NCBI RefSeq assembly: GCF_035989285.1
Contig: NZ_CP108513.1
Coordinates: forward strand, 1,736,001-1,800,000
From: Streptomyces sp. NBC_01235
GTDB taxonomy: Bacteria > Actinomycetota > Actinomycetes > Streptomycetales > Streptomycetaceae
Length of the DNA: 64,000 nt
Direction: 5' to 3'
The notes under the pieces were generated by a model that had not been told where the DNA came from, made no database searches, and saw only the letters and a program-made list of their open reading frames with translations. Of this stretch, positions 22,697-38,424 are shown one piece after another (within the stretch, counting starts at the first letter, position 1; every line of letters begins with the position of its first letter). The position numbers and the translations under genes were made by a program.

Positions 22697-23656
22697 ATGA
22701 CCACGCTCACCGCACCACCCAAGACCGCACCACCACCCGCCCGGCCCCGGAAATCCCCGGGCACAGCCAAGTGGAAGCGGCGTATCCCGCTGCTGCCGGC
22801 ACTGATCTTCACCATCGCCGTCACCCAGCTGCCGTTCGTGGCCACCCTCGTCATCTCCACCTTCCAGTGGAACATCCTCAAGCCGGGCGAGAGGCACTTC
22901 GTCGGCCTGGACAACTTCACGTTCGTCTTCACCGACGAACGGCTGCGCACGGCCGTCCTCAACACCATCGTCCTGACCGCGTCGGTGGTGCTCCTCAGCG
23001 TCGTCCTCGGACTGGGTCTGGCGATGCTGCTCGACCGCCGCTTCACCGGCCGCGGCCTGGCCCGCACCCTGCTCATCGCACCGTTCCTGGTCATGCCGGT
23101 CGCGGCCGCACTGCTGTTCAAACACGCCCTCTACAACCCCGACTACGGCCTGCTCAACGGCACCCTGAACACCGTCTACCGGCTGTTCGGCGCGGACAAC
23201 GGCCCCACCGTCGACTGGATCTCCTCCTACCCCATGCCGGCCGTCGTCCTCTCGCTGGTGTGGCAGTGGACGCCGTTCATGATGCTGATCCTCCTGGCCG
23301 GCCTGCAGGCCCAGCCCGGTGACGTCCTGGAAGCGGCCCGCATGGACGGCGCGTCGGCGATGGCGACCTTCCGGCACATCACGCTGCCGCACCTGCGCCA
23401 GTACATCGAACTGGGCGTCCTGCTCGGCACGATCTACATCGTGCAGACCTTCGACGCGGTCTACACCATCACCCAGGGCGGCCCCGGCTCACAGACCACC
23501 AACCTGCCCTACGAGATCTACCTGACCATGTTCCGCAAGTACGAATACGGCCAGGCGGCCGCCGCCGGCGTCGTCGTCGTCCTCGGCGCCATCGTGATCG
23601 CGACCTTCGCACTGCGCACCATCGCATCACTCTTCCGCGAGGAGGCATCCCGATGA
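22697..23656 (+). CDS. Sugar ABC transporter permease 1 (MalF-type)
   Basis: 319 residues starting MTTLTAPPK. Six membrane segments after a basic N-terminus; the ATPase-contact EAA loop reads EAARMDGASAMATFRHITLP. A Gly-rich cytoplasmic/periplasmic turn TQGGPGSQTTNLPY near the C-terminus is typical of MalF-like permeases. It pairs with the next gene, overlapping by ATGA. No nucleotide-binding subunit is encoded nearby; in streptomycetes a shared ATPase such as MsiK serves several sugar permeases. Confidence 0.93.
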   Translation: MTTLTAPPKTAPPPARPRKSPGTAKWKRRIPLLPALIFTIAVTQLPFVATLVISTFQWNILKPGERHFVGLDNFTFVFTDERLRTAVLNTIVLTASVVLLSVVLGLGLAMLLDRRFTGRGLARTLLIAPFLVMPVAAALLFKHALYNPDYGLLNGTLNTVYRLFGADNGPTVDWISSYPMPAVVLSLVWQWTPFMMLILLAGLQAQPGDVLEAARMDGASAMATFRHITLPHLRQYIELGVLLGTIYIVQTFDAVYTITQGGPGSQTTNLPYEIYLTMFRKYEYGQAAAAGVVVVLGAIVIATFALRTIASLFREEASR

Positions 23657-24537
23657 CTCACGCAGCCCTCGCCGCACCCGGCGCCAGGTTCAAGAAGCTC
23701 CTGCACCGAGGCGACGACCACGGCAGTGCACCCAAACTCTCACCGCTGTGGACGTTCACCGCCTGGCTGGCCACGCTGGCGTTCTTCGCACCGGTGGCGT
23801 GGATGGTCCTCACCTCCTTCCACCAGGAAGCCGACGCCGCCACCAACCCGCCCACCCCCTTCGCCCCGCTCACCCTCGACCAGTACAAGCTGCTGTTCAG
23901 CCGCGACATCACCCCCTTCCTCCTCAACTCGGCCATGGCCAGCATCCTTTCCACACTGCTCGTGCTCGCCCTGGCGGTGCCCGCGGCCTACGCGCTGTCC
24001 ATCAAACCGGTCCAGAAGTGGACCGACGTGATGTTCTTCTTCCTGTCCACCAAGTTCCTCCCCGCCATCGCCGCCCTGCTGCCGGTCTACCTGATCGTCA
24101 AGGACGCCGGAATGCTGGACAACGTATGGACACTCGTCATCCTCTACACCGCCATGAACCTCCCGATCGCGGTGTGGATGATGCGCTCCTTCCTCGCCGA
24201 GGTCCCCAAGGAGATCCTCGAGGCCGCCGAAGTCGACGGCGCCGGCCTGCTCACCGTGCTGTGGCGGGTCGTCGCACCCGTCGCCATGCCCGGACTCGCC
24301 GCCACCTCGCTGATCTGCTTCATCTTCAGCTGGAACGAGTTCATGTTCGCCGTCAACCTCACCGCCACCCAGGCATCCACCGCCCCGGTCTTCCTCGTCG
24401 GCTTCATCACCAACGAAGGCCTCTTCCTCGCCCGGCTCTGCGCCGCCGCCACCCTGGTCTCCCTGCCGGTCCTCATCGCCGGCTTCGCCGCCCAGGACAA
24501 ACTCGTCCGCGGCCTCTCCCTGGGAGCCGTGAAGTGA
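23653..24537 (+). CDS. Sugar ABC transporter permease 2 (MalG-type)
   Basis: 294 residues, six membrane segments; EAA loop EAAEVDGAGLLTVLWRVVAP. The sequence FIFSWNEFMFAVNLT is characteristic of MalG-type partners. Its start overlaps the first permease and its stop overlaps the first dehydrogenase (GTGA), so uptake and oxidation are translationally coupled. Confidence 0.93.
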   Translation: MTHAALAAPGARFKKLLHRGDDHGSAPKLSPLWTFTAWLATLAFFAPVAWMVLTSFHQEADAATNPPTPFAPLTLDQYKLLFSRDITPFLLNSAMASILSTLLVLALAVPAAYALSIKPVQKWTDVMFFFLSTKFLPAIAALLPVYLIVKDAGMLDNVWTLVILYTAMNLPIAVWMMRSFLAEVPKEILEAAEVDGAGLLTVLWRVVAPVAMPGLAATSLICFIFSWNEFMFAVNLTATQASTAPVFLVGFITNEGLFLARLCAAATLVSLPVLIAGFAAQDKLVRGLSLGAVK

Positions 24538-25541
24538 AGGCGGCCGTCATCACCCGGCCCGGCAGCGTCGAACTCGCCACTGTCGACGACCCCGTCCCCG
24601 GCGCGCGCGAGGTCGTCGTCGAGGTCGCGGCCTGTGGTCTGTGCGGGACCGATCTGCACATACTCCAGGGCGAGTTCGCACCGAAGCTGCCCATCATCCC
24701 CGGCCACGAGTTCGCCGGAGAGGTCGTGGGCCTCGGCAGCGAGGTCACCGAACTCGCCATCGGCGACCAGGTCGCCGTGGACCCGTCGCTGTACTGCAAC
24801 GAGTGTCACTACTGCCGCACCGGCCGCAACAACCTCTGCGAACGGTGGGGCGCGATCGGGGTCACCCACCCGGGCGGCGCCGCCGAGTTCGTGGCCGCCC
24901 CCGTCGCCAACTGCACGATCCTGCCCGACAGCGTACGCGCCGAGGACGCGGCCCTGATCGAGCCGCTGTCCTGCGCCATCCGCGGCTACGACGTCCTGCG
25001 CAGCCGCCTCGCCTCCCGCGTGCTCGTCTACGGCGCCGGAACCATGGGCCTGATGATGCTCCAGCTCGCCAAGGCCACCGGCGCCGCGAGCGTCGACGTC
25101 GTCGATGTCAACGCCGAACGTCTGTCCACGGCATGGCAGTTGGGCTGCTCCGCCGCTGCCGCGTCCGCCGACGAGCTCGACCGGCCGCGCTACGGCTGGG
25201 ATCTGGTCGTCGACGCGACCGGCAACGCCGCCGCCATCCAGGACGCCCTCGGGCGGGTCGGCAGGGGCGGCACGTACCTGCAGTTCGGGGTCTCCGACTA
25301 CGCGACGACGGCCACCATCTCGCCGTACCGCATCTACAACCAGGAGATCACCATCACCGGCTCCATGGCCGTCCTGCACAGCTTCGAACGCGCGGCGGAC
25401 CTCTTCGCCACCGGTGTCATCGACCCGCGCGTCTTCATCAGCGACCGCCTCCCCCTGGCGGCGTTCCCGGACGCGGTCGCCCGCTTCCAGGCGGGCGTCG
25501 GCCGCAAGATCCAGATCCAGCCCGGCCTCGCCCCCGCGTGA
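24534..25541 (+). CDS. Zinc-dependent alcohol (polyol) dehydrogenase 1
   Basis: 335 residues, medium-chain dehydrogenase. Catalytic zinc ligands are in GLCGTDLH and PGHEFAG, structural-zinc cysteines in YCNECHYCRTGRNNLC, and the nucleotide fold begins VLVYGAGTMGLM. The acidic residue VVDVNAER after the second strand favours NAD+. Closest in pattern to sorbitol/L-iditol/threonine-type dehydrogenases. It should oxidise the imported polyol to a ketose. GTG start in a GTGA overlap with the permease. Confidence 0.9.
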   Translation: MKAAVITRPGSVELATVDDPVPGAREVVVEVAACGLCGTDLHILQGEFAPKLPIIPGHEFAGEVVGLGSEVTELAIGDQVAVDPSLYCNECHYCRTGRNNLCERWGAIGVTHPGGAAEFVAAPVANCTILPDSVRAEDAALIEPLSCAIRGYDVLRSRLASRVLVYGAGTMGLMMLQLAKATGAASVDVVDVNAERLSTAWQLGCSAAAASADELDRPRYGWDLVVDATGNAAAIQDALGRVGRGGTYLQFGVSDYATTATISPYRIYNQEITITGSMAVLHSFERAADLFATGVIDPRVFISDRLPLAAFPDAVARFQAGVGRKIQIQPGLAPA

Positions 25542-25566
25542 ACGCCCGAACCGAACGGACTCCCCC

Positions 25567-26601
25567 ATGGCCCACCAGATCCGCCGCGTCCTCGTCCGCT
25601 CCCTGGACGACATCACCCTCGAACGGGTGCCCGCCCCCGTCCCCGGGGACGACGAACTCCTCATACGCGCCACGGTCGTCGGGGTGTGCGGCTCCGACAC
25701 CCATGCGGCGGCCGGCCACCACCCCTTCATCGACCTTCCCTACCGCCCCGGTCACGAGGCCGTCGGCGTCGTCGTCGCGGCAGGGAAGGGAGCAGAGGAC
25801 TTCACGACCGGCGACCGGGTGATCATCGAGCCCAACCTGTACTGCGGCCGGTGCCCGCAGTGCCGCTCCGGCCGCTACAACATCTGCCAGGAACTGAAGG
25901 TCTTCGGCTGCCAGACGCCCGGCGCCATGACCGACCTGTTCACCATCCCCGCCGACCGCGTCCACCGCGTCCCCGACGGCATGACCGACATCGAGGCCGC
26001 CCTCGTCGAGCCCCTGGCCACCCCGGTGCACGCCGTGGCGAAGGCCGGGGACCTCACCGGCCGCACGGTCGCCGTGCTCGGCGCCGGGCCCATCGGTCTG
26101 CTCGTCCTCGCCGCCGCCCGGCACGCGGGCGCCGCGAAGATCGCCGTCACCGACCTGCTGCCGGGCAAGCGGGATCGCGCCCTGCGCCTCGGAGCCGACT
26201 CGGCCCTGCCCGCCGACGCCGCCGACCTCGCCGACCAGGCCCGGGAGGCGCTCGGCGGACCGGTCGACGTGGTCTTCGACTGCGTCGCGCGCGAACAGTC
26301 CATCGCCCAGGCCACCGACCTGGTCACCAAGGGCGGCACGATCATCGTCGTCGGAGTGGGAGCCGCGGGGACCACCCCCGTCCGCCTCGACCTGGTGCAG
26401 GACCGGGAGATCCGCATCGAGGGCACTCTGATGTACACCGGCGACGACTACCGCACCGCGATGGCGCTGATCGCTTCGGGCGCCGTCGACACCGCCGAGA
26501 TCGTCACCGCCACCTACCCCCTGGAGGACGCCGCCAAGGCTTTCGCCGCATCCGCCGACCCCCAGCACGTCAAGGTGCTGGTCACTGTGGAGGGCCCATA
26601 G
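25567..26601 (+). CDS. Zinc-dependent alcohol (polyol) dehydrogenase 2
   Basis: 344 residues, another medium-chain dehydrogenase, only moderately similar to the preceding one. Catalytic zinc region GVCGSDTHAAAGHHP and PGHEAVG; structural cysteines YCGRCPQCRSGRYNIC; dinucleotide fold VAVLGAGPIGLLVL. Two such enzymes in one operon could oxidise different positions or successive intermediates. It starts 25 bases after the first dehydrogenase and is followed by the DeoR regulator. Confidence 0.9.
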   Translation: MAHQIRRVLVRSLDDITLERVPAPVPGDDELLIRATVVGVCGSDTHAAAGHHPFIDLPYRPGHEAVGVVVAAGKGAEDFTTGDRVIIEPNLYCGRCPQCRSGRYNICQELKVFGCQTPGAMTDLFTIPADRVHRVPDGMTDIEAALVEPLATPVHAVAKAGDLTGRTVAVLGAGPIGLLVLAAARHAGAAKIAVTDLLPGKRDRALRLGADSALPADAADLADQAREALGGPVDVVFDCVAREQSIAQATDLVTKGGTIIVVGVGAAGTTPVRLDLVQDREIRIEGTLMYTGDDYRTAMALIASGAVDTAEIVTATYPLEDAAKAFAASADPQHVKVLVTVEGP

Positions 26602-26684
26602 GCCCCGGAAGCCGGACGGGCCCAGGCCCGCACCGGCCCGTGTGGGAAACTGCGAGACCGGAGCGATCGGGAAGGAGGGGCGCT

Positions 26685-27506
26685 GTGACCGCCCGTACGC
26701 GACTGTCACAGGCCGCCGTCGAGGAGCGGCGTCAGGCCGTGCTGCGGTATGTCGCCGAACACGGCGAGACCCGCATCGACGACCTCGCCCGGCACTTCGA
26801 CGTCAGTCTGATGACGATGCACCGGGACCTGGACGACCTCGCCGGGCGCCATCTGCTGCGCAAGGAGCGCGGGCGGGCCGTCGCCTTCCCCGCCCTCACC
26901 ATGGAGACGGCCACCCGCTTCCGTGAGAACAGCGCCCTCGCGGCCAAGAACGCGCTGTGCGCCGCCGTCGCCGACCGGATCAGGCCGGGCAGTACGGTGC
27001 TCATGGAGGACTCGACCACCCTGTTCCCCCTGGTCCCCACGCTGCTCCGGGTGGACCAGCTCCACGTCGTCACCAACTCCGTCGGCCTCGCACAGCGCCT
27101 CGGGTCCGCGGCCGGCGTGAGCGTCACCCTGCTGGGCGGCCACTACCGCGGTGACTTCAACTCCTGCACCGGCCCCACCGTCACCCGCGCCCTGTCCCGG
27201 ATCCGGGCCGACCTCGCCCTGATGTCGGCCACGGCCGTCCTTGAGGGCCGGCTCTTCCACCCCGTCAACGACTACGTCGAGGTGAAGCTCGCCATGCTCG
27301 GCTCCGCCGAACAGGCGCTGCTCCTGGTGGACCACTCGAAGTTCGGCAAGACCGCCACGTACGCGTACGGCACCGTGGCCGACTACCACACCGTCATCAC
27401 CGACACCGGCACGCCCGACGCGGAACTCGAGGCCATGCGCGACCTCGGAGTCGACGTCGAGACGGTCGAGGTCGAGACGGTCGAACCCGAAGAGCCCTCC
27501 CCATGA
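26685..27506 (+). CDS. DeoR-family transcriptional regulator
   Basis: 273 residues from a GTG with RBS GAAGGAGG. N-terminal winged helix (about 12-65: RRQAVLRYVAEHGETRIDDL, then HFDVSLMTMHRDLDDL) and a C-terminal DeoR sugar-phosphate sensor domain with VLMEDSTT, VVTNS and LGGHYR. Members repress sugar operons and are released by a sugar phosphate, here probably the product of one of the kinases. It is encoded in the operon it most likely controls. Confidence 0.9.
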   Translation: MTARTRLSQAAVEERRQAVLRYVAEHGETRIDDLARHFDVSLMTMHRDLDDLAGRHLLRKERGRAVAFPALTMETATRFRENSALAAKNALCAAVADRIRPGSTVLMEDSTTLFPLVPTLLRVDQLHVVTNSVGLAQRLGSAAGVSVTLLGGHYRGDFNSCTGPTVTRALSRIRADLALMSATAVLEGRLFHPVNDYVEVKLAMLGSAEQALLLVDHSKFGKTATYAYGTVADYHTVITDTGTPDAELEAMRDLGVDVETVEVETVEPEEPSP

Positions 27507-28240
27507 TCCACGCCTTGTTCGAAACACCGAGCGCCTACCGGCCCAGCGACGTCGAGATGGCGGCGCCCGTGCCTCCGGTACAGGCCGTCCTCTTCGACTT
27601 CAGCAACACCCTCTTCCAGATGATCGACCTGGAGACGTGGCTGCGCCGGGTCGGCGCCGCCTCCGGCCGCCTCGCCGTGCTGAACGAGCCCGGCGCGGTG
27701 GCCGGCATCGCCGACCAGCTGCGGACCGCCTTCCGGCTGCCCGCCGTCGTCGCCGTCCAGGAAGGCCGGGACCTCTCTTCCGCACAGCACCGCCGCGCGA
27801 TGTGGGGATGGTGGGAGCGGGTGGACTTCCTGCGCGGCGCGGAGGAGGCGGCCTACCGGGAACTCACCGCCCCGGACGCCTGGATCCCCTACCCCGACAC
27901 CGAACCGGTCCTGCGGGCCCTGCGCGAACGTGGGCTGCTCATCGCCATCGTCAGCGACTTCGCCTGGGACCTGCGCACCCACCTCGCCCACCACCGGCTG
28001 GACGACTTGATCGACACCTGTGTCATCTCCTACGAGCAGGGCCGCGAAAAGCCCGACCCCCACCTGTTCCTCAAAGCCTGCGCCGACCTCGGTGCCGCCC
28101 CCCGCGCCACCCTCATGGTCGGCGACAACCCGGTCCGCGACGGCGGCGCCGCCGCCTGCGGTCTGCGCACCTACATCCTGCCGGCGGAACACCGCACCGG
28201 TGAGCGCGGTCTGGCGGACGTACTGCGACTCGTGCCCTGA
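27503..28240 (+). CDS. HAD-superfamily hydrolase
   Basis: 245 residues, start overlapping the regulator stop. HAD motif I is FDFSNTLF: the nucleophile Asp is present, but the usual second Asp of phosphatases is Ser, as in a common actinobacterial subfamily. Motif II is IVSDF, motif III Lys is in GREKPDPHLF, motif IV is MVGDNPVRD. Helical cap between motifs I and II. It probably acts on a phosphorylated sugar intermediate or a damaged metabolite of this pathway. Followed by a strong hairpin that ends the operon. Confidence 0.85.
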   Translation: MIHALFETPSAYRPSDVEMAAPVPPVQAVLFDFSNTLFQMIDLETWLRRVGAASGRLAVLNEPGAVAGIADQLRTAFRLPAVVAVQEGRDLSSAQHRRAMWGWWERVDFLRGAEEAAYRELTAPDAWIPYPDTEPVLRALRERGLLIAIVSDFAWDLRTHLAHHRLDDLIDTCVISYEQGREKPDPHLFLKACADLGAAPRATLMVGDNPVRDGGAAACGLRTYILPAEHRTGERGLADVLRLVP

Positions 28241-28287: not shown

Positions 28288-29523
28288 TCAACTCGTCAGT
28301 CTGGCGCAGAGCTTGTCGGAGGGGACGGGGGATTTCCCCAGTTTCCGCTGGACCTGGTCGAGATCGCGGAGGAGATCGGTGGGATCCGCCGTTCCGGCGG
28401 TCGCATAGTCGAGGACGGCCCGATAGTAGGCGGCCGACACGTCGGGGGTCATCGCGTCGGCGGCGCCGAAGCACAGCGTGTAACCGGAGTCCGGCCGGAG
28501 CATGCCGGCTATCCGCTGCTGGACGGCGTCGTCGTAGCGGGTGACCTGGCTGTCGGCGGAGAACGCGGAGCCCTCTCCCTGGTTCACCCAGGACTGCTGG
28601 GCCTCCGTCTCCGCGAGGTAGGCGATGAAGGCTTCGGCGCTCGGATTGTCGTCGGTGAACATGCCGACGAAGTCCGCCGAGACCTCCAGTCGGCGGGTCG
28701 CGGAGGACGTCACGTAGTCGTGGCTCTGCCCCTGCTTGAAACCCATGGCGGACAGCGCGCCGTGCGCGAGGGAGCACGTGCGGGGTTTCGTGGTCATTCC
28801 CGCGGCCGCCTCGCCGAAGTTGCGGACGGCCGCGCCTTTGACGCCGGTCCCCACGAGGTTCCGCCAGGTGGTCCACGCCTCCTTGAGCGGGGGCGAGTTC
28901 CATTCCAGACTGCCCGAGAGCCACTGCCGGTAGGCGTCGCCGTTCCCCTGTGCGAGCAGTATGTCGGCGATCCAGTCGGCGCCCGGCCAGCCGGAGGTGG
29001 GGCCGGACTCCAGCCCCAGGCACCAGGTCCCGGACCTGCGCAGGTCGGCCGCCGACGGCCGGCCGGTCACCGCGGGGTCGAACCAGACGAGGCTCTTGAC
29101 GTCCACTTTGACAGGCACGGCGTAGACCTCGCCCCGCACCTCCGTCAGCCCGCGGAACGGCTGTAGATAGGCGCCCGTGGGGACCCGGAGCGGCTGTAGT
29201 TTCCGGTCCTTGGCCGCTTCCTCGTCCGCGTATCTGTAGATGGCTCCCACGCTCGGCAGCATGGCGAGATCGGGCGGCGCCCCGGCCGCCACCGCGGCGT
29301 CGAGCTGTTGGGTCAGGGCGCGGGTGACCTGCACGTCCACCTGGATGCCGGTGTCGTCCTCGAACGCCTTGACGACCGAGTAGAACGCCTGGAACTCGTT
29401 GCCGGACCAGGGAACCATGATCGTCACCCTGTCGTGTCCCGGCCCGCCGCCGCACCCGGCCGCGGCCAGCACCAGCCCCAGGGCCAGGACGCAGTGCGCG
29501 AGGCGAGCCGTCAGCGTTCTCAT
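28288..29523 (-). CDS. Extracellular solute-binding lipoprotein of the kinase operon (GlnH-like role)
   Basis: 411 residues, lipobox AAAGC after a signal peptide; mature part is a two-lobe family 1 type binding protein (VTIMVPWSGNEFQAFYSVVK, ... DDTGIQVDVQVTRA). The ATG at 29523 has TGAGG at good spacing; ATG at 29535, overlapping the upstream stop, is the alternative. No permease follows; instead it ends an operon with a four-TM protein, a VWA protein and a PknG-like kinase. In mycobacteria and corynebacteria a binding lipoprotein (GlnH) relays ligand to GlnX and PknG, so a sensory rather than transport role is inferred. It belongs to a different binding-protein family from GlnH. Confidence 0.8.
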   Translation of the reverse strand: MRTLTARLAHCVLALGLVLAAAGCGGGPGHDRVTIMVPWSGNEFQAFYSVVKAFEDDTGIQVDVQVTRALTQQLDAAVAAGAPPDLAMLPSVGAIYRYADEEAAKDRKLQPLRVPTGAYLQPFRGLTEVRGEVYAVPVKVDVKSLVWFDPAVTGRPSAADLRRSGTWCLGLESGPTSGWPGADWIADILLAQGNGDAYRQWLSGSLEWNSPPLKEAWTTWRNLVGTGVKGAAVRNFGEAAAGMTTKPRTCSLAHGALSAMGFKQGQSHDYVTSSATRRLEVSADFVGMFTDDNPSAEAFIAYLAETEAQQSWVNQGEGSAFSADSQVTRYDDAVQQRIAGMLRPDSGYTLCFGAADAMTPDVSAAYYRAVLDYATAGTADPTDLLRDLDQVQRKLGKSPVPSDKLCARLTS

Positions 29524-29531
29524 GACCGTCC

Positions 29532-30494
29532 TCATGACCGCGGGAACCTGTACTCGGCGAGGCGGGGACGGTAGCCCAGGTAGGCGAGCACAGCGGCGGC
29601 CGAGAGGAGGCCCAGCGCGAGCGTCGTCGTCAGCCAGTGTCCGACCAGCGGATCCTGGCTCAGGACCTGCGCGTCGTGTCGGCACAGAACGCTGGTGGTG
29701 ATCCCGACCGCCGCGGTGACCACCAGCGCGACCACCAACCGCGGGCCGACATGGCGGCGGAACCGACGTGCCACGACATAGCCGGTCGCGAGGACGCCCA
29801 GGAGCATGACGGCCGTCGGTCCGACGAGCAGGGACCAGACGTAGGCGGGGTTCAGCCAGTGCGACCGACGCTGAGCGTCGAGCGCCTGGCGCTGCATGTC
29901 CTCGAGGTCGGTGAGCGATGCCGTGAGGCCGCCCGTGCCCGGGATGGGGTCGTCCGTGCCGGGTTCCCGCGCGCTCGGGGCGGTCAGCGCCTGACGGGCG
30001 GAGCTCAGTCCCGCCCCGCCGCTGCGCGCGTAGTCGCGCACCGCCGTGTTGGCCAGCTGTACACAGGTGGTCAACTGGCCCTGGAGAAAGGCGAATTGGG
30101 CCTGTCCCCGTTTCCCGGCCGCGTTGCCCTCGGCCGCCGAGGTGACGAGGGTGTTCACGCGCGCGGTGTCGTTGGCGAACTCCGTGCCCGTGCCGATCAG
30201 GGTGACCTGGCCGGTGCCGGCGGCCTTCGCGAGCGCCGCGTCCGCCGCCATGGCCGTCCTGCGTGCCTGGCCGATGTCCTCGATGGCGTCGTCGGTGCGC
30301 CTCGCCGCGGTCAACTGATCGCCTGCCCGCGTCGACACCAGCAGATACAGCAGTGCCGTGGCCAGCACCATGGCGATCACGCCTGCTCTGAGCCACCGCA
30401 GGACCCGCACCGGATGGATCGCGCGGACCCGCGTTCGCCAGCCGGTCACCGTCCCCCGCAGGGACCGCCGGGACTGCGCGGCCGCTGTGCTCAC
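29532..30494 (-). CDS. Four-TM membrane protein with extracytoplasmic domain (GlnX-like topology)
   Basis: 320 residues. TM1 about 38-54, then a helical extracytoplasmic domain of about 160 residues (one Cys, Ala/Thr-rich), then TM2 217-242, TM3 252-271 and TM4 287-306, with short cytoplasmic ends. This matches the GlnX architecture: one TM, large outer domain, three TMs. GTG start overlaps the VWA gene stop (GTGA) and its own stop abuts the lipoprotein gene. It probably transmits the state of the binding protein across the membrane to the kinase. Sequence identity to GlnX could not be checked. Confidence 0.7.
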   Translation of the reverse strand: MSTAAAQSRRSLRGTVTGWRTRVRAIHPVRVLRWLRAGVIAMVLATALLYLLVSTRAGDQLTAARRTDDAIEDIGQARRTAMAADAALAKAAGTGQVTLIGTGTEFANDTARVNTLVTSAAEGNAAGKRGQAQFAFLQGQLTTCVQLANTAVRDYARSGGAGLSSARQALTAPSAREPGTDDPIPGTGGLTASLTDLEDMQRQALDAQRRSHWLNPAYVWSLLVGPTAVMLLGVLATGYVVARRFRRHVGPRLVVALVVTAAVGITTSVLCRHDAQVLSQDPLVGHWLTTTLALGLLSAAAVLAYLGYRPRLAEYRFPRS

Positions 30495-31960
30495 GAGGCG
30501 TCCACCGGAGCACCGTCCGTCGCCGGTTCGTCGAAGCGGTGTCCGCAGTTCTCGCAGAACCTGGCGGAGCGTGCCGATGTCGTCGCGCCGCAGCGCGGGC
30601 AGCCGCGCGTGGACATGCCGTCGGCGGGCGGGAGTTCGACCGGGTCGACCGGTGGGGCAGCGGTCCTGGTCGATTCGAGCCCGAGTCGTTGCACCTCTCC
30701 GCGGGGGGCGTCGCGGCGCACCCGCAGCCTGCCGTCGGTGCCGGTGACCGACACCGAGCGCAGCAGCCGCATGCGCGCGGTGTCCCGGAGCTCCTCGGCG
30801 AGTCCCACCGCGATGCGCAGCTCACGGTCCGCGCGTTCGAAGTCCCGCCTCTGCTGGGCGTCGGCGCACGCCCTCATCGCCATGCCCAGCTCGTGCTCGT
30901 TCTCGACCCGCGTGAGGTCGGCGGACGGCGGGATGCCGAACCCGGGTGTCGCCCGCCGCCGTACGACGATGGCCCGGGGCTCGGAGCACGGCACGCGTGT
31001 TCCGTCGGGCTGTTCCGCGTGCAGTGTGATGCGGGCGGCGCGCAGGTTCTCCTCGACGGTCAGCGTCTCGGGGTCGAAGCGCAGCGACACCTGGTACTGG
31101 CGGGCTTCGGGCGGCCAGGAGCCGAGCGGGACGTGGATCTCGTCGCCATGACTCTGACGGGCCGTCAGTTCCGCCTCCACGGGACGCGTCTGGCGTACGA
31201 AGCCCAGCCGGAACCGTTCGTTGAGGCGCAGGCCCAGGTAGACGCGGGCCACGACGATGCGCTGCGCCTGCCGCATGATCCGGGTGAAGTCCTGCGTGAG
31301 GTCGGACACGGTGACGACGGCCTCGGCGCTGCCGTGCAGTGCCTCCGTGATCCGCAGCAGTTCCGCGTAGTTCCAGTCCTCGCCGAGTCCCCGCGCGTCG
31401 CACACGAACCGGTCGGTGCACTTCTGGAGCACGCCGCCCAGTTGCTCGGGCGTCTCGTGCTCGTCCTTGCCGTCCGTGTAGAGCACGGCGTGGCGCACGG
31501 TGCCGGGGGACGTCACCGACGCGAAGAGCCGGTCGGCGCAGGCCAGCCACTGCCCGATCGCCGTGCCGCCCTCGGCCAGTTGGCCGACGATCCGACTCTT
31601 GGCCTCCTGTCTGGCCGCGGCGTCGACGCGCGCGAGGCCGCCCGTGGTCGGGTAGACCACGTCGGCCTTGTGGTTGCCCGCGACGATCCCCAGGAGCGTC
31701 CCGTCCCGCAGGGTGTCGACGGCCGCGCACATCGCGCGTTTCGCCTCGTCCAGCTTGCCGCGGCCGGCCATGGACAGCGACTTGTCCATGATCAGGATCT
31801 CGGCGGCCCGCGTCCGCGGGACCGCGTCGGCGGCGGAACGCGCCCTGACGGTGACGAGGGCGTCCGCGCGTGTCTCGTCGTAGGCCAGATCGGACGGTGC
31901 GTCCACGTCCACTTCGAAGCTGAGCCCTGTTAATGGCGGACTGTCCCCCACCGGCACCAC
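30491..31960 (-). CDS. VWA-domain protein with C-terminal zinc ribbon
   Basis: 489 residues. The von Willebrand A fold (about 50-225) has a full MIDAS: Asp59-x-Ser61-x-Ser63 (IMDKSLSM), a TAIGQWL-type Thr and YTDGKDEHE. A middle beta-rich domain follows, then a helical segment (about 330-400) and a C-terminal zinc ribbon with CPRCG ... CENCGHRF. No signal peptide, so cytoplasmic. The matching zinc ribbons on this protein and on the kinase suggest that they share partners. GTG start at a weak RBS; an in-frame GTG nine bases downstream is possible. Confidence 0.82.
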   Translation of the reverse strand: MVPVGDSPPLTGLSFEVDVDAPSDLAYDETRADALVTVRARSAADAVPRTRAAEILIMDKSLSMAGRGKLDEAKRAMCAAVDTLRDGTLLGIVAGNHKADVVYPTTGGLARVDAAARQEAKSRIVGQLAEGGTAIGQWLACADRLFASVTSPGTVRHAVLYTDGKDEHETPEQLGGVLQKCTDRFVCDARGLGEDWNYAELLRITEALHGSAEAVVTVSDLTQDFTRIMRQAQRIVVARVYLGLRLNERFRLGFVRQTRPVEAELTARQSHGDEIHVPLGSWPPEARQYQVSLRFDPETLTVEENLRAARITLHAEQPDGTRVPCSEPRAIVVRRRATPGFGIPPSADLTRVENEHELGMAMRACADAQQRRDFERADRELRIAVGLAEELRDTARMRLLRSVSVTGTDGRLRVRRDAPRGEVQRLGLESTRTAAPPVDPVELPPADGMSTRGCPRCGATTSARSARFCENCGHRFDEPATDGAPVDAS

Positions 31961-32014
31961 CTGACTGTGTCCCGCGTGTCGCTGCGCGTCCCCTGTTTGT
32001 CCCTGCGTAGCGGG

Positions 32015-34147
32015 TCAGGAGCTTAGCGTGTCGGGTGTGACTCCGAAACGGGAATGACCGGTTCGGCCGCGGCGGCCACGCCACCTCCACGCCAGCACCG
32101 GGCGCAGCCGGTTCGCCAGGTCCACCAGTGCCACGTACTCGCGCTCGGTGGGAGCGTGCGCGCCGAGCCCGCGGACCGCTTCGGACAGCCTCAGCCGGTC
32201 CTGGGTGCGCTGGAACTCGGCGTACTCGATCTCGGCCCCGAGGCCGGTGGCCGCGGCGTCGTCCGCGTGGAGACCGTCCAGCGCCGCGCGGGCCCGTGCC
32301 AGGTCGCCCTCGGTCGGCGAGGTGACGGCCGGGTGTGCGAGGACCGTGACGAGCAGCCGTACGGCCGCGACGCGCGCCTCGCGTTCGTAGCGGAATTCCT
32401 GGGTCAGGCGCTCGGCGGTGGCCACCGCTTCCGCGCGCCGGTCGGCCAGCAGGTGCACACGGGCCAGTCCGAAGCCCGCCGCGCCGATCGCGGGGGTGGT
32501 GTCGAAGACGGTGCCGTAGTGCGAGCGGGCGGCCTCGCTGTCGCCGCGGAACTCGGCGCACAGGCCGAGCGCGAGCTGTGGGATCAGTTCGCCCGGCAGC
32601 GTTCGTCGTACCTCGGTGAAGTGGCCGACGGCTCTCGGCACGTCCTCACGCGCCAGCGCGATCAGACCGGAGTACCAGGCGTGCAACCAGTGCCAGTCGG
32701 GCAGGCCCGCGCGGGCGAGGGCCTGCCCGGCCAGTGTCACGTCGCCTCGGCGCAGGGCGAGCCTGCTCTCGGCCAGCGCGTTCCCGGCCGAGTCGCCGAC
32801 ACGGGGATCGTCGGGATCGGAGAGGGGCGTGGGGAGCGCCGCCGCCATGTCCGGAGGCCGGGGGCAGGAGAACGGGGCGGGCATGATCAGCAGGGTGTCC
32901 CCGGCCACGCCCGCGCGAACCCAGTGATCGAGCGGCCGCGGCACCCCCAGCCCGCCGTGCAGCGGCTCGGTGATCGAGCCGAACAACGCCGACGGACGGG
33001 CCACCTGCCGACGGGTCGGCGGCGCAGCCACGATCTGCCGGATCACTCCGCTGAGCTGCTCCCCGAACTGACGTGACGAAACGAATCGCCGCTGGGGCAC
33101 GGCGGTGTCCGTGGCGCGGTCCAGCAGCAGCTCGAGCGAGTCGACTCCGGGCGCCGCACGGTCGGTCCGGTGCGAGCGGCACACCTCTCGCAGCGTCTTC
33201 CCGAGTCCGTACAGGTCGAAGCCCGCAGTGGGCTTCAGGTACTCCGGATCGCCCTCCGGGGGCGCGTACGCCTCGGTGTACGCGACGATCGGCCCGGCTT
33301 CCTCCTGGGACCGCACCGCGCCGAAGTCGATGAGGCGGACCCGGTCGAGCGGCCGGGCGGCGCCCGCGGAGCCCTCCTCCCGGAACCGGATGATGTTCAG
33401 GGGCTTGACGTCGCAGTGCAGCAGACCCCTGGCATGCAGGTAGTCGAGCGCCTGGAGGACGCGGACGCCGTGCGCGAGGAGCGTCTCGAGCCGGTCGCCG
33501 TCCCGTGCCGAGAGCGGCACGCCAGGGACGTACTCCAGCACGAGGTGCGGCCCCTCGGGCTCGTAGCCCAGGATGCGGACGATGCTGTCGTGCCGGAGCC
33601 CGACCAGCACGTCCCGCTCGTGCTCGGCCGTCCTGGCCACCGACCTGTTCAGGGCCTTGAGGACCACCTGTGTCTCGAGGTTCCGGTCGTGCGCGAGGTA
33701 CGCCGCTCCGTACGCCCCCGAGCCGAGGACGCGCTCGACGTCGTAGCGCCCGGCGATGGTGAGGCCGTGGGGCTGGGCGAAGTCGAAGCGGGTGCCGCAG
33801 TGGGCGCAGAATCCCGCGATCCGGCCCGGCTCGTCGCCGTGCCCCCGGCCGACCTGTTGCCGGCACACGGGATTCGCGCAGAAGCGGTGCTCCTCGGGGA
33901 CCGGGCCCGCCGTGGGAAGCGGTACGTCCGGGGGTTCGGGAGCATGGTCGGCATCGATCAGGCCGAGGCCGTACCAGGGGTCCGGGCGCACCTGCGCCAC
34001 GCCGACGCTGACCCCCTGCGCCGGACCGGCCGCGCCGGGGTGGGACGCGGCACGCTCCTGCGGCAACGGCTGCCGGTCGCACTCCGGGCAGAAGCCCTGC
34101 TCGTCGATCTCGCCCAGGCCGCAGTCGGGGCGGTTGCACAGGGGCAC
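32015..34147 (-). CDS. pknG: PknG-like serine/threonine protein kinase with zinc ribbons and TPR domain
   Basis: 710 residues. Two N-terminal zinc-binding modules (CNRPDCG ... CPEC at 4-23; CANPVC ... CAHC at 90-117) stand where PknG has its rubredoxin-like domain. Kinase core about 130-380: G-loop LGSGAYGAAY, Lys164, catalytic HCD-VKPLN (Asp246) and metal-binding DFG 274-276. A helical TPR-type C-terminal domain follows (about 440-690). No membrane segment, so cytosolic. PknG in mycobacteria phosphorylates GarA/OdhI to control 2-oxoglutarate flux. No FHA-domain substrate is encoded here. Starts at GTG four bases after the protease gene. Confidence 0.9.
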   Translation of the reverse strand: MPLCNRPDCGLGEIDEQGFCPECDRQPLPQERAASHPGAAGPAQGVSVGVAQVRPDPWYGLGLIDADHAPEPPDVPLPTAGPVPEEHRFCANPVCRQQVGRGHGDEPGRIAGFCAHCGTRFDFAQPHGLTIAGRYDVERVLGSGAYGAAYLAHDRNLETQVVLKALNRSVARTAEHERDVLVGLRHDSIVRILGYEPEGPHLVLEYVPGVPLSARDGDRLETLLAHGVRVLQALDYLHARGLLHCDVKPLNIIRFREEGSAGAARPLDRVRLIDFGAVRSQEEAGPIVAYTEAYAPPEGDPEYLKPTAGFDLYGLGKTLREVCRSHRTDRAAPGVDSLELLLDRATDTAVPQRRFVSSRQFGEQLSGVIRQIVAAPPTRRQVARPSALFGSITEPLHGGLGVPRPLDHWVRAGVAGDTLLIMPAPFSCPRPPDMAAALPTPLSDPDDPRVGDSAGNALAESRLALRRGDVTLAGQALARAGLPDWHWLHAWYSGLIALAREDVPRAVGHFTEVRRTLPGELIPQLALGLCAEFRGDSEAARSHYGTVFDTTPAIGAAGFGLARVHLLADRRAEAVATAERLTQEFRYEREARVAAVRLLVTVLAHPAVTSPTEGDLARARAALDGLHADDAAATGLGAEIEYAEFQRTQDRLRLSEAVRGLGAHAPTEREYVALVDLANRLRPVLAWRWRGRRGRTGHSRFGVTPDTLSS

Positions 34148-34151
34148 GGCG

Positions 34152-35852
34152 TCACCCTTCGTCTATCCGGCGGTTGACCTCGTCGGTGTAGCGCCTGACC
34201 AGCGTGCGGGCGGCCGCGAGGTCAATCGGTACGGTCTGCAGCGCACGGGCGGCGGGAGCGTGCAGCTCGGCGAGCCGCCGGTCCTCGTCACCGAAGAAGC
34301 GCGCGGCGCGCACGCGGTGCAGTTCCAGGCTCGTACTGAGGTCCTCGTGGCTCTGGACCAGCCGCCGCAGGGCGCGGTCGAACCCGGCGACCTCGGCGCG
34401 GGCCTCCAGGGCGCGGTCGTGGACCGCGGCGAGTTCGGGGTTCGGCTCGGTGGTGCGGGCGACGGCCAGCCGGACCCGCAGGCGGGGCGCGGCGCTGTGC
34501 GGCAGCCGTGGCGTGGCGAAGAACTTCTCTCCCCACCGCGTCCGCAGCCGGGCCGCCGCCTCCTCCTCGGCGGCGAGCTGCCCGACGACCGTCTGGACCT
34601 GCGCCGAGGTCACCCTCCTGAAGGCCGACCCGACGATCGGTGCGGGGTCGAGGGACACGTCATGGGCGAGATCGGCGGGCGGCCGGTCCTCGAAGCCCAG
34701 GACGAGGCGCAGGCCGCGCGAGCGGGCCCGGACGGCCAACGGCCCCAGCAGGTCCCGTACGAGTGCGGCGGGGTCGGCGGCCCGGTCGACGCGACCCACC
34801 ACCAGACAGGCGGGCGGTCTGCGGCGCACCAGCTGACGCACCGCCTCGCGGTCGTTCTCCGCACGGAGCCCGAACCGGCCCAACAGATAGCCGCGCACCT
34901 CGGCGACGGACTTGCCGCAGGCGTCGTAGGCCGCGTCGATGGAGCCCAGCCCGAGGACCGTGTCGCCCGGCGCCCCGGTCAGCTCGGCGTCGGAGACGGC
35001 GGCCCGGGCGGCCGGATCGGCCGTGCGCACCAGACGCACCAGCCACGAGGAACCCGCCCCGACCGAGGCGTCCGTGCCGACGACGACGGTGCCCGACCAG
35101 CCGCCGTCGAGCAGCCGGGTGAGTTCCTGGGTCAGGGCGAGCCGCAGCGGGTCGCCCAGCACGTCCTGGGGCAACTCGCCTCCGGACGGACCCAGTTCGT
35201 CGGCGCGGTGCCCGCCGGTGAACTCCCTGATGCTCGGCAGGTGGGTCAGCAGTGTCTCGGTCGGCAGCATCCAGGCCGCCCTGGCGTCGCCGTCGGCGTA
35301 GTCGGCCACCACGATGCCGATGACCCTCCCTTCGAACTCGCCGTCCAGTGCCACCACCCCGGCGCCCGAATAGCCCGGCTGGATCCATGGATCGCCGGTG
35401 CGTATCTGCCTCAGCAGCACCCGTTCGCTCTGCCGCCAGCCGGAACCCGCCAGCTCCGCGTCCGTCCCGATGCCGTACGGCTCGGCCTGCGGGAAGCCGT
35501 ACACCCGCACCCTGCCGCCGGAGATGGGCACCTTCCACAGGGTGGTCCTGGTTCCGCAGTCGACCGGCTCCTCGAGTGCGAGCAGCGCCACATCACCTCG
35601 CCGTGTGCCGTGCTCGTGCACCCACGATCCCGGGACCACCCGCGCGGCGCGCGTCCACTCCGGACCGCACGCCACGCTCCTGATCCGCACCCGGGCCGCG
35701 GTACCCTCCGGCTGCGCTCCGGCGTACCGGACGACGTGCGCGCAGGTCAGCACGTGTCTGTCGTCGAGCAGCACCCCGGCACCGCAGGGAGTTCCGCCCT
35801 CGTCGTCCACCCTCACCCGCCAGGGGTTCTCGCTGTGGTGATGCAGCGCCAT
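34152..35852 (-). CDS. Trypsin-like serine protease heading the kinase operon
   Basis: 566 residues from the ATG of MALHHHSENP. Chymotrypsin-fold domain (about 1-210) with the triad His39 (LTCAHVV), Asp87 (RRGDVALL) and Ser162 (GYSGAG). No signal peptide is visible, so it should act in the cytoplasm. The middle part (about 240-410) resembles an NTPase-like or effector-associated region but lacks a Walker A motif. The C-terminal ~130 residues are helical (RALEARAEVAGFDRALRRLV). An in-frame ATG ten codons upstream is an alternative start; TACTGT just before the chosen ATG would allow a leaderless message. Confidence 0.8.
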   Translation of the reverse strand: MALHHHSENPWRVRVDDEGGTPCGAGVLLDDRHVLTCAHVVRYAGAQPEGTAARVRIRSVACGPEWTRAARVVPGSWVHEHGTRRGDVALLALEEPVDCGTRTTLWKVPISGGRVRVYGFPQAEPYGIGTDAELAGSGWRQSERVLLRQIRTGDPWIQPGYSGAGVVALDGEFEGRVIGIVVADYADGDARAAWMLPTETLLTHLPSIREFTGGHRADELGPSGGELPQDVLGDPLRLALTQELTRLLDGGWSGTVVVGTDASVGAGSSWLVRLVRTADPAARAAVSDAELTGAPGDTVLGLGSIDAAYDACGKSVAEVRGYLLGRFGLRAENDREAVRQLVRRRPPACLVVGRVDRAADPAALVRDLLGPLAVRARSRGLRLVLGFEDRPPADLAHDVSLDPAPIVGSAFRRVTSAQVQTVVGQLAAEEEAAARLRTRWGEKFFATPRLPHSAAPRLRVRLAVARTTEPNPELAAVHDRALEARAEVAGFDRALRRLVQSHEDLSTSLELHRVRAARFFGDEDRRLAELHAPAARALQTVPIDLAAARTLVRRYTDEVNRRIDEG

Positions 35853-36357
35853 CTCTCCACAGTATGGCAACTCCCGCCCCATGCGCCCGAGTTGTCGCCG
35901 ACTGCCGCCTCCGGCATGGCCGTGCCGCGATCCGGACTCCGGCGTCGGGCCTGCCGGTCAGGCGCCGAGATGGGCACCGGCTCCAGGAGGTCGACGATGA
36001 CGAAGTCCGCGAAGCGCGGGACGGCGAAGTCGGCGAGCTCCAGGTCCTGCGTGTCCGCCCGATCCGCACGGCGCCACCGGCCTCGCGTCCGCCCGCGGAT
36101 CAGGTCGTGGAGGCGGCGCCCGGTACACCGGTCTCCGGCGTTGTCGTGGCCGGCCGACTCCCCGCGCTCGGCCACGTTCGGCCACCTTGCGGCCGCACGC
36201 TCCCCCGCTCTCGGCTTCGCCCGCCCGCCCGCCCGCCCGCACGACGGGGCGCCGCTGGCTGTCCGACCCGACCCGCCGGACGGGCCCTCGCGCCGAAGGC
36301 CGTTCGGCTTCCGCACACGGCGGGTGGGAGCATGGAAGGGCTGGAGGAGGATCTGCG
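35853..36357. other. Spacer with minus-strand relic of a SpoIIE-type sensor phosphatase
   Basis: No intact gene. At about 35960-36060 the minus strand reads LELADFAVPRFADFVIVDLL then EPVP, very close to the GAF-linker motif of streptomycete SpoIIE phosphatases (the intact neighbour has ELAEIAVPQLADVVAVDVLD). Stops and low-complexity sequence surround it. The rest is a GC-rich stretch with a CCCGCC-type run near 36225-36240 and a GGAGGAGG ribosome site for the next gene. Confidence 0.55.
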
Positions 36358-38424
36358 ATGACAGCCGAACCCGTCCGGTCCGACGGCGGCGCGTACCGTT
36401 CCGAGGCGCCCCCGCCCACCGGCCTGCTGGACGTGCTGAGCGTGTCCGCGATGGTCCTCGACGCCGACGGGCGCATCGTGTTCTGGACCCCGCAGGCGGA
36501 GGAGCTCTTCGGATACACCGCCGAGGAGGCCCTCGGCAAGTACGCGGCGCGGCTGTTCATCCACTCCGAACACCTCAAGGCCGTGGTGCGACTGTTCACG
36601 GAGGTGCTGGAGACCGGCCGGAGCTGGGCGGGCGCCTTCCCCATCCGGCACAAGGACGGCAGCAGCCGTCTGATGGAGTTCCGCAACATGCGACTCCAGG
36701 ACGACAGCGGGGACGTCTACGCCCTGGGCATCGCCGCCGACCACACCCTGCTCCAGCGCGTCGAGACCGATCTGGCCCTGTGCGACCGGCTGATCACCCA
36801 GTCCCCGATCGGTCTGGCCGTTCTGGACCCCGACCTGCGCTACCTCCTGGTCAACCCGGCGCTGGAACGCATCGACGGCATCCCCGCCGAGGACCACGTC
36901 GGCCGGCGCCTCAGGGAGACCCTGCCCCTGCCCGACGTCGACACCATCGAGTCCCTGTTGCGTCAGGTGCTCACCACCGGCACTCCACTGCTGGACCAGT
37001 ACCACGTGGGCCGGCCGCCCACCGACCCCGACCACGAGCACGCCTGGTCCCTGTCCTTCTACCGGCTGGAGGACCCCGGCGGGCGGGTCCTGGGCGCGGC
37101 CGCCTCGGTCGTCGACGTCACCGAACGCCACCGCGCGGCCGCGGAGGCCGACCGGGCCCGGCGCCGCCTCGCCCTCATCGCCGACGCCTCCGTGCGCGTC
37201 GGCACCACACTGGAGGTGGAGGTGACCGCCCGTGAGCTGGCCGAGATCGCCGTCCCCCAGCTCGCCGACGTGGTCGCCGTGGACGTCCTCGACGCGGCCC
37301 TGGCCTGCCGCCGCTCGCGGCGGCCGGACGACGGCCCCGAGCTGTTCCGCGCCCTCGCGCTCAAGGCGGCCCACCCCACCGTGGCGCTGCGCGCCGCCGA
37401 CCCTCCCGGTGGCCTGACGGCCTACGACGGCGACCGTCTGGTCACCCTGTGTGTGCACACCGGCCGGCCGGTGCTGGTGCGCCACGTCGGCGAGCACGAC
37501 ATCCCCCGCATCGCCCGGGACGCGGAGGCCGGCTCGCTGCTGGCCCGGGCCGGCGTCCACTCGTATCTCGCCGTGCCGTTGATCGCCCACGGCGAGGTCC
37601 TCGGCGCCCTCGACCTCAAGCGCACCCGCAACCCGCTGCCGTTCGACGAGGACGACGTCGTCCTCGCCGCCGAGCTGGCCGGCCGTGCGGCCGTGGCCAT
37701 CGACAACGCCCGTTGGTTCCAGAGCGTGCGCAACACCGCCCTCACCCTCCAGCGCAGTCTGCTGCCCGACCACGCGCCCCATCACACCGGCCTGGACCTC
37801 GCCTCCCGCTACCAGCCCGCGCAGGCCACCAGCGAGGTCGGCGGCGACTGGTACGACGTCATCCCGCTGACCGACGACAAGACGGCACTGGTCGTCGGAG
37901 ACGTCATGGGCAACGGCATCGACGCCGCCGCCACCATGGGCCGGCTGCGCACCGCCACCTGCGCCTACGCGGACCTGGACCTCGACCCCGGGGCCGTGCT
38001 CCAGCACCTGGACAAGATCACCTGCGATCTGGAGCACTACATCGTCACCTGCCTGTACGCCGTGTACGACCCCCGGACCAGACAGTGCCGCATGGCCAAC
38101 GCTGGACACATGCCGCCCGCGCTGGCCGGCCCGGGCCATGCCCCCCGGCTTCTCGAACTGCCCTCGGGCGCCCCCCTCGGCGTCGGCGGCGTCCCCTTCG
38201 AGACCACGACGACCGACCTCGTCCCCCGCGACCTGCTGGTCCTCTACACGGACGGCCTCGTCGAGACCCGGCACCACTCCATCGACGACCGCCTGGACGT
38301 CCTCCTCAACTTCCTCGACGAACCCGAACGGCCCCTTGAGGAGATCTGCGACCTCCTGCTGTACGGCCTGCGCCACCCCGACGACCACGACGACGTCGCC
38401 CTGCTCGTCGCCCGGGCCCTGTAG
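36358..38424 (+). CDS. SpoIIE-family protein phosphatase with PAS and GAF sensor domains
   Basis: 688 residues. PAS 1 about 25-130 (VFWTPQAEELFGYTAEEALG), PAS 2 about 140-255 (ITQSPIGLAVLDPDLRYLL), GAF about 275-455, and a PPM/SpoIIE phosphatase about 465-685 with GGDWYDV, VVGDVMGNGIDAA, NAGHMPP and the terminal DDVALLVARA. The metal-binding aspartates are present. There is no C-terminal HATPase domain, unlike many relatives. Such proteins dephosphorylate anti-anti-sigma factors and so switch on stress or development sigma factors. No partner genes adjoin; RBS GGAGGAGG is strong. Confidence 0.93.
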   Translation: MTAEPVRSDGGAYRSEAPPPTGLLDVLSVSAMVLDADGRIVFWTPQAEELFGYTAEEALGKYAARLFIHSEHLKAVVRLFTEVLETGRSWAGAFPIRHKDGSSRLMEFRNMRLQDDSGDVYALGIAADHTLLQRVETDLALCDRLITQSPIGLAVLDPDLRYLLVNPALERIDGIPAEDHVGRRLRETLPLPDVDTIESLLRQVLTTGTPLLDQYHVGRPPTDPDHEHAWSLSFYRLEDPGGRVLGAAASVVDVTERHRAAAEADRARRRLALIADASVRVGTTLEVEVTARELAEIAVPQLADVVAVDVLDAALACRRSRRPDDGPELFRALALKAAHPTVALRAADPPGGLTAYDGDRLVTLCVHTGRPVLVRHVGEHDIPRIARDAEAGSLLARAGVHSYLAVPLIAHGEVLGALDLKRTRNPLPFDEDDVVLAAELAGRAAVAIDNARWFQSVRNTALTLQRSLLPDHAPHHTGLDLASRYQPAQATSEVGGDWYDVIPLTDDKTALVVGDVMGNGIDAAATMGRLRTATCAYADLDLDPGAVLQHLDKITCDLEHYIVTCLYAVYDPRTRQCRMANAGHMPPALAGPGHAPRLLELPSGAPLGVGGVPFETTTTDLVPRDLLVLYTDGLVETRHHSIDDRLDVLLNFLDEPERPLEEICDLLLYGLRHPDDHDDVALLVARAL

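Follow-up and report, generated by a model that had tools for sequence, protein, structure and literature searches.

The 64,000-nucleotide stretch of Streptomyces sp. NBC_01235 analysed here (hereafter the window; positions 1736001-1800000 of an 11.09-Mb single-contig genome) contains a five-gene operon for a trypsin-like protease (trp), a PknG-type kinase (kin), a VWA protein (vwa), a protein with four predicted transmembrane (TM) helices (tm) and a binding lipoprotein (lip). Our best reading, to which we assign a probability of roughly 0.45, is that the operon encodes a paralogous, rewired PknG relay, in which a ligand-gated kinase controls a VWA-associated protease. An earlier sequence-only reading had placed five minus-strand genes between positions 35852 and 28288, and our analysis confirmed their limits, strand and spacing, with gaps of 4 bases between trp and kin and 54 bases between kin and vwa, and overlaps of 4 bases each at the vwa/tm and tm/lip junctions.

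The five genes form a conserved unit. A kinase-alignment scan of genomes returned 64 loci, from which we retained 35 close relatives (L012-L046) and left out 29 with remote kinases (L047-L075). All five genes were detected by tblastn in the same order and on the same strand in 31 of the 35, a linkage far beyond chance, and the co-conservation on which the sequence-only reading had staked its proposal was thereby borne out. The four exceptions comprise two loci cut by contig ends (L025 and L034), one without trp and vwa (L030) and one without trp (L045); among the 31 complete loci, L046 has a broken trp/kin region. Motif counts given below cover the extracted proteins, which leave out, for example, the vwa of L038 and the kin of L041. 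Clustering of the flanking open reading frames (ORFs) revealed no larger conserved neighbourhood, with a gene for the small protein Trypco1 in 16 loci and the next cluster in at most six.

The operon is patchily distributed. Of 150 Streptomyces genomes, 12 have a window-type kinase at E ≤1e-60 and 138 have no close kinase; across the phylum, 4 of 296 sampled genomes have one, all four of them Streptomyces. Relatives of the operon beyond the genus include Actinacidiphila, a Nocardiopsis metagenome-assembled genome (MAG) and a bog MAG. A divergent trp-kin-vwa-tm-lip cassette with the same gene order, which we call type II, is present in four further Streptomyces genomes (L143-L146), with about 30-37% identity to the window-type (type I) cassette for the four parts detected by BLAST, and with an ORF at the tm position that has three to five hydrophobic peaks and ends in a [DE]YR tail. 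In a fifth genome (L147), fetched in part, kin, vwa, the tm ORF and lip were seen. These five genomes, which lie outside the 12 positives of the kinase search, surfaced through a search with the VWA protein of the core PknG locus described below. Together with the four type I genomes of the sample, they bring the number of Streptomyces genomes with a whole or partial cassette to 9 of 41.

By its domain composition, kin is a predicted PknG-type kinase, with Pfam matches to PknG_rubred (PF16919, 47.9 bits against a cut-off of 28.5), Pkinase (PF00069, 77.2 against 31.7) and PknG_TPR (PF16918, 99 against 27). It aligned to the Mycobacterium tuberculosis PknG structure 2pzi over residues 60-684 (E 8.5e-51), and residues K164, E177, H244/D246, K248, N251 and D274-F275-G276 were invariant in 17 aligned sequences, in agreement with the earlier description of a PknG-like kinase with a TPR-like tail. 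Its nearest named protein relatives, judged from the best 120 of 207, are from Streptomyces. In a midpoint-rooted kinase tree, from which II_L144, II_L147 and core_L091 were dropped for want of the motif, the window-type kinase was separate from the core PknG and a Corynebacterium PknG; L045 grouped with type I (100/99), and type I minus L045 formed one group (96/97). Long branches come together in this tree and its root is placed at the midpoint, so the order among the type I, type II and core kinases is unsure. A 1146-amino-acid metagenomic protein (P0109) was also encountered that fuses a PknG-type kinase to a VWA protein, with no rubredoxin domain listed.

The same genome carries a second PknG gene in a seven-gene core locus (L006:5758-16915; G000:C1 about 4195757-4206914), which encodes a GlnX, a GlnH of family SBP_bac_3, a 453-amino-acid helical protein with no Pfam match above cut-off, PknG itself, a PP2C protein with a zinc ribbon, a VWA protein and an FHA protein. 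Sequence comparison indicates that kin and vwa are plainly related to their counterparts there, vwa sharing 34% identity with the core VWA protein over 442 columns (E 1e-56). The core helical protein is present in 40 of 41 Streptomyces genomes, compared with 12 of 150 for the window-type kinase, and the core VWA protein in 38 of 41; comparison by eye placed the two on one contig with a gap of less than 6 kb in 34 of those 38 and on different contigs in the other four. A VWA protein beside PknG is therefore the norm of the genus, and we rejected it as the novelty of the operon. The sequence-only reading had counted both the protease and the VWA protein as new beside PknG: the protease is indeed a new element of a PknG-type sensing operon, and the VWA protein is not. 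Both loci have PknG and VWA relatives, a GlnX or GlnX-like protein and a binding lipoprotein. The core locus, unlike the operon, includes genes for PP2C and FHA proteins but none for a protease; it also has a full-length GlnX (516 bits to NF058618, the GlnX family model) and a binding protein of another family.

The vwa protein matched VWA_3 (E 2.8e-10), while its C-terminal zinc-ribbon-like stretch fell below the Pfam cut-off; VWA_3_C (PF18571), found in the core VWA protein, was absent from vwa at E ≤1. The metal-ion-dependent adhesion site (MIDAS) motif, DKSLS in the window protein, is kept as DxSxS in 30 of 31 VWA proteins extracted from the loci and in the window protein. A GGTAIG.W stretch is exact in all but five of those 30 (L018, L023, L039, L041 and L042), and the zinc-type motif is missing from L037 and L040.

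Pfam and fold searches place the N-terminal part of trp in the trypsin family, with a trypsin/HtrA fold. All 19 type I proteins examined have its catalytic triad H39/D87/S162, and all four type II proteins have the counterparts; trp is predicted to be cytoplasmic, no signal peptide being apparent by eye at its N-terminus. Four of five fragments of the middle domain had no Pfam family even at E ≤10, and the fifth matched Poly_export at E 0.027; the order of strands and helices, together with a glycine-rich loop that has no lysine in 19 of 19 proteins, suggests a dead P-loop-like domain without the Walker lysine. Given the lack of a Pfam family assignment, the domain was rejected as a recognisable ATPase. 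The end of trp is probably related to the end of the core helical protein (hhalign probability 87.6, E 3.5e-6, 62 columns), and each of the two proteins is encoded directly upstream of its own pknG. As a control, a hidden Markov model (HMM) of the helical protein was searched against 501 proteins of the operons and their flanks, together with reversed and shuffled versions of each: the 24 best matches were all trp proteins, eight of them at E ≤1e-3, while a flanking ORF, the best of the non-trp proteins, reached E 0.056 and no decoy did better than E 0.27.

For tm, no Pfam family scored above cut-off. Hydropathy peaks at residues 31-49, 217-242, 248-267 and 287-307 indicate four TM helices, which are also seen in the structure model (predicted local distance difference test score 82.1), where one outer four-helix bundle lies between TM1 and TM2. 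Because true GlnX carries two outer domains, both of them large (PMC9769921), the earlier description of tm as having GlnX topology was only half right: the four TM helices and an outer domain hold, and the number of outer domains does not. Consistently, about 20 residues separate TM3 and TM4 in tm, compared with about 158 in the core GlnX. Profile tests of tm against GlnX were mixed in outcome. It matched NF058618 at E 5.1e-6 (25.9 bits, below the curated cut-off of 250); 8 of 25 family members matched at E ≤0.01, the best at 5.3e-17, and the highest-scoring relative, that of L045, reached 62.1 bits. Foldseek gave no match for tm at E ≤0.001, among fold-search listings that contain no GlnX structure. 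A C-terminal R[LIV].EY[RQ] tail was found in 33 of 34 tm proteins and in none of 331 flanking ORFs, and EYR terminates 13 of 13 aligned GlnX proteins, the RxxEYR tail being a feature noted in this analysis. Taken together, these comparisons suggest that tm is probably related to GlnX but reduced, its outer part consisting of a single helical bundle in place of two; we rejected its assignment as a true GlnX, given the missed NF058618 cut-off and the absent second outer domain. In the XylFII-LytS xylose-sensing pair, a sugar-binding protein docks on an outer four-helix bundle; LytSN was the top entry of the VIA list for tm, and the pair is used as an analogy for GlnH-GlnX in PMC9769921.

The lipoprotein matched SBP_bac_1 (E 3.9e-10), and at E ≤1 only SBP_bac_1, SBP_bac_8 and SBP_bac_11. 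It is not a GlnH, because it belongs to SBP_bac_1 and not to SBP_bac_3, and the earlier claim of a binding protein from another family thus proved correct. When a profile of 20 lip relatives was compared with the PDB, AcbH was the best match (E 1.2e-12), with chitin-oligosaccharide-, glucose-, xylo-oligosaccharide- and maltose-binding proteins lower among the best 60 of 387 matches. AcbH binds galactose. The ligand of lip is, on these similarities, probably a carbohydrate. No binding-protein-dependent permease was recognised by eye in the flank clusters of at least four loci, the functions of these clusters not having been searched.

Outside the window, the protease operon has a recurrent neighbour. 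A gene for Trypco1 (about 100 amino acids, PF19493) lies directly after lip in 27 of the 31 loci with trp and lip, tblastn having raised the count from the 16 obtained by clustering, and in all five proteins tested the PF19493 score (72.6-82.2 bits) exceeded the cut-off of 24.6. No Trypco1 gene was detected in L012, L014, L027, L037 or the window, nor beside the operon in the near relatives of the window (G023, G398 and G413), and it was not detected in type II cassettes; a close form adjoins the operon in 7 of the 12 kinase-bearing genomes, read by position. In the window itself, trp has an intact triad but no such neighbour. Elsewhere in the same genome there are five Trypco1 family matches, at L128 and four other places, and next to the one at L128 is a reading frame whose trypsin domain shares 30% identity with trp.

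PMC7159879 defined Trypco1 as a family found next to trypsin peptidases in the conflict systems that multicellular prokaryotes carry, and PMC10907252 also describes it beside trypsin domains in such systems. The trypsin-Trypco1 modules of vWA-MoxR (VMAP) systems (PMC7159879) resemble the operon in having an N-terminal trypsin domain in a larger protein, a Trypco1 neighbour (here in the relatives) and a vWA protein. They differ from it in that no MoxR gene occurs among the five genes and no VMAP domain in trp, while the operon has what appears from its sequence to be an active PknG kinase, together with a membrane and binding-protein arm, instead. Pfam detected neither a MoxR nor a VMAP domain in the five proteins at E ≤1, nor a MoxR among nine flanking proteins scanned, and membership in VMAP/vWA-MoxR systems was therefore rejected.

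Gene loss bears on how these parts belong together. In the decayed operon of S. lincolnensis L4 (L030:9866-14519), kin, tm and lip remain; inspection by eye showed the first trp codons running into the kinase frame and the first vwa codons into the tm frame, and the kinase is without its N-terminal cysteine motif. In L045, aroA precedes the kinase, which has kept its N-terminus, and vwa is without its MIDAS half. No Trypco1 was found in either. Both uncut loci without trp thus also lack an intact VWA protein and Trypco1, which suggests, with n=2, that protease, VWA protein and Trypco1 are one output module on a kin-tm-lip chassis.

Table 1 Features of the operon, in window coordinates
Feature	Position	Strand	Description
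trp	34152..35852	-	566 amino acids; trypsin-like domain ~11-210, middle alpha/beta domain ~235-400, helical C-terminal part ~416-565
trp tail	34164..34349	-	residues 502-563; probable homologue of the end of the core helical protein, whose gene immediately precedes pknG
kin	32015..34147	-	710-amino-acid PknG-type kinase (predicted): extra N-terminal cysteine motif, rubredoxin-like, kinase and PknG TPR domains
vwa	30491..31960	-	489-amino-acid VWA protein; DxSxS MIDAS motif; C-terminal CxxC..CxxC stretch
tm	29532..30494	-	320 amino acids; TM1, one outer four-helix bundle, TM2-TM4, C-terminal tail RLAEYR; probable reduced GlnX relative
lip	28288..29535	-	415-amino-acid lipoprotein, SBP_bac_1 solute-binding family

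Plus-strand genes border the operon on both sides. Those at 23653-28240 encode an ABC permease, two zinc alcohol dehydrogenases, a DeoR regulator and a HAD hydrolase and converge on the operon, the HAD gene ending about 48 bases from the lip stop, at the place where Trypco1 sits in most relatives. A PAS-GAF-SpoIIE phosphatase gene at 36187-38421 is divergent from the operon.

The closest described system is the GlnH-GlnX-PknG-GarA/OdhI relay of Mycobacterium and Corynebacterium (PMC6069109, PMC9769921), with which the window shares a PknG-type kinase with rubredoxin-like and TPR domains, a four-TM probable GlnX relative with the same C-terminal tail and an outer solute-binding lipoprotein, all in one operon. 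It differs from that relay in having SBP_bac_1 instead of SBP_bac_3, one outer bundle instead of two, another gene order, added trypsin and VWA genes and a kinase that stands apart in the tree. In the rewired relay that we favour, an extracellular solute, probably a carbohydrate, would be bound by lip, and loaded lip would dock on GlnX-like tm at its one outer four-helix bundle. The cytoplasmic parts of tm, including the conserved RLxEYR tail, would then act on the TPR domain of kin, as in the GlnX/PknG model, in which both assumed interactions are undemonstrated (PMC9769921). Finally, kin would control an output module in which the VWA protein, together with Trypco1 in most relatives, serves as scaffold for a cytoplasmic protease of the trypsin type; this last step is proposed because of the operon structure, the shared origin with the core locus and the co-loss. 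Several comparisons came out weak or negative: hhalign gave a probability of only 32 for tm against GlnX, direct BLAST of tm against the core GlnX was not significant, the helical-protein HMM reached the window's own trp at only E 0.036, and direct BLAST of trp against the core helical protein gave only E 0.004. A possible but doubtful extension is a solute-gated proteolytic switch, for which evolution would have coupled a GlnX/PknG relay, so far associated with the tuning of metabolism, to the trypsin-Trypco1 module of conflict systems: an outside molecule recognised by the lipoprotein would be signalled through the one-bundle GlnX-like protein, and the PknG kinase would release or block a VWA-held intracellular protease. 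The overall interpretation of the sequence-only reading is partly supported, Trypco1, the trp tail and the core locus having been absent from it, whereas for the chaperone-like output that it also proposed no support was found.

The main rival, which we regard as rather unlikely, is that the operon encodes a second metabolic PknG, whose relay would respond to a carbon source rather than to aspartate/glutamate and tune 2-oxoglutarate dehydrogenase through phosphorylation of the ordinary GarA/OdhI protein, with the protease and the VWA protein only assembling or maturing the relay. The complete PknG architecture including the TPR domain, a GarA/OdhI relative encoded elsewhere in the genome (E 3.8e-55; 188.1 bits, with the cut-off at 200), the survival of kin, tm and lip without a protease in L030 and L045, and the action of the core GlnX/PknG on GarA/OdhI in other genera (PMC6069109, PMC9769921, PMC8546545) are all consistent with it; however, 31 of the 33 loci that no contig end interrupts have both protease and VWA genes (L046 among them in broken form), and the presence of the operon in so few Streptomyces genomes (12/150) would be odd for central metabolism. 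That same patchiness would suit a conflict or programmed-death system, in which the outer proteins would respond to an envelope event or to a molecule from an invader, whereupon the kinase would set free a trypsin effector, paired with Trypco1, that harms proteins of the cell itself, an explanation that overlaps with the protease arm of our best reading and that we consider unlikely. It draws on the definition of Trypco1 beside trypsin peptidases of conflict systems (PMC7159879) and its presence in 27/31 relatives, on PADLOC matches of trp to RT-Protease_XI (E 2.2e-4) and Avs1b (E 0.0026), and on matches of the kin kinase domain to many PADLOC defence kinases (best PD-T4-6, E 3.7e-24). Yet both trp matches are weak, those of kin span the kinase domain only, no MoxR partner or STAND-type family was found among the five proteins, and Trypco1 is absent in the window and was not detected in type II. 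Very unlikely, in our estimate, is a role of the protease as a maturation factor that clips, for example, the kinase N-terminus or the VWA protein, with the VWA protein and Trypco1 as its chaperones: trp lies directly upstream of kin with a 4-base gap, its tail resembles the protein beside the core pknG, and in L030 its loss accompanies that of the kinase N-terminal cysteine motif and vwa, but this co-loss occurs in one genome only, and the L045 kinase keeps its N-terminus without trp.

Searches of open-licence literature returned no paper with this operon in its title or the beginning of its abstract, which is not proof of its absence from print, and the word PknG does not occur in PMC7159879. 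PknG is presented in the articles consulted as a regulator of glutamate metabolism, with communication between GlnX and PknG unproven (PMC9769921). The core Streptomyces PknG locus, with its helical, PP2C, VWA and FHA proteins, is larger than the three-gene operon described in those articles. The operon family provides natural variants of the GlnX/PknG relay, with one bundle, another class of binding protein and the same C-terminal tail, and these variants point to a minimal signalling part of the relay and direct attention to the RLxEYR tail and the TPR domain. The family also places a sensory kinase next to a protease pair that was so far associated with predicted conflict systems, which hints at a possible outside trigger for those systems, and the protease in the operon makes the output of a PknG-type kinase a testable question.

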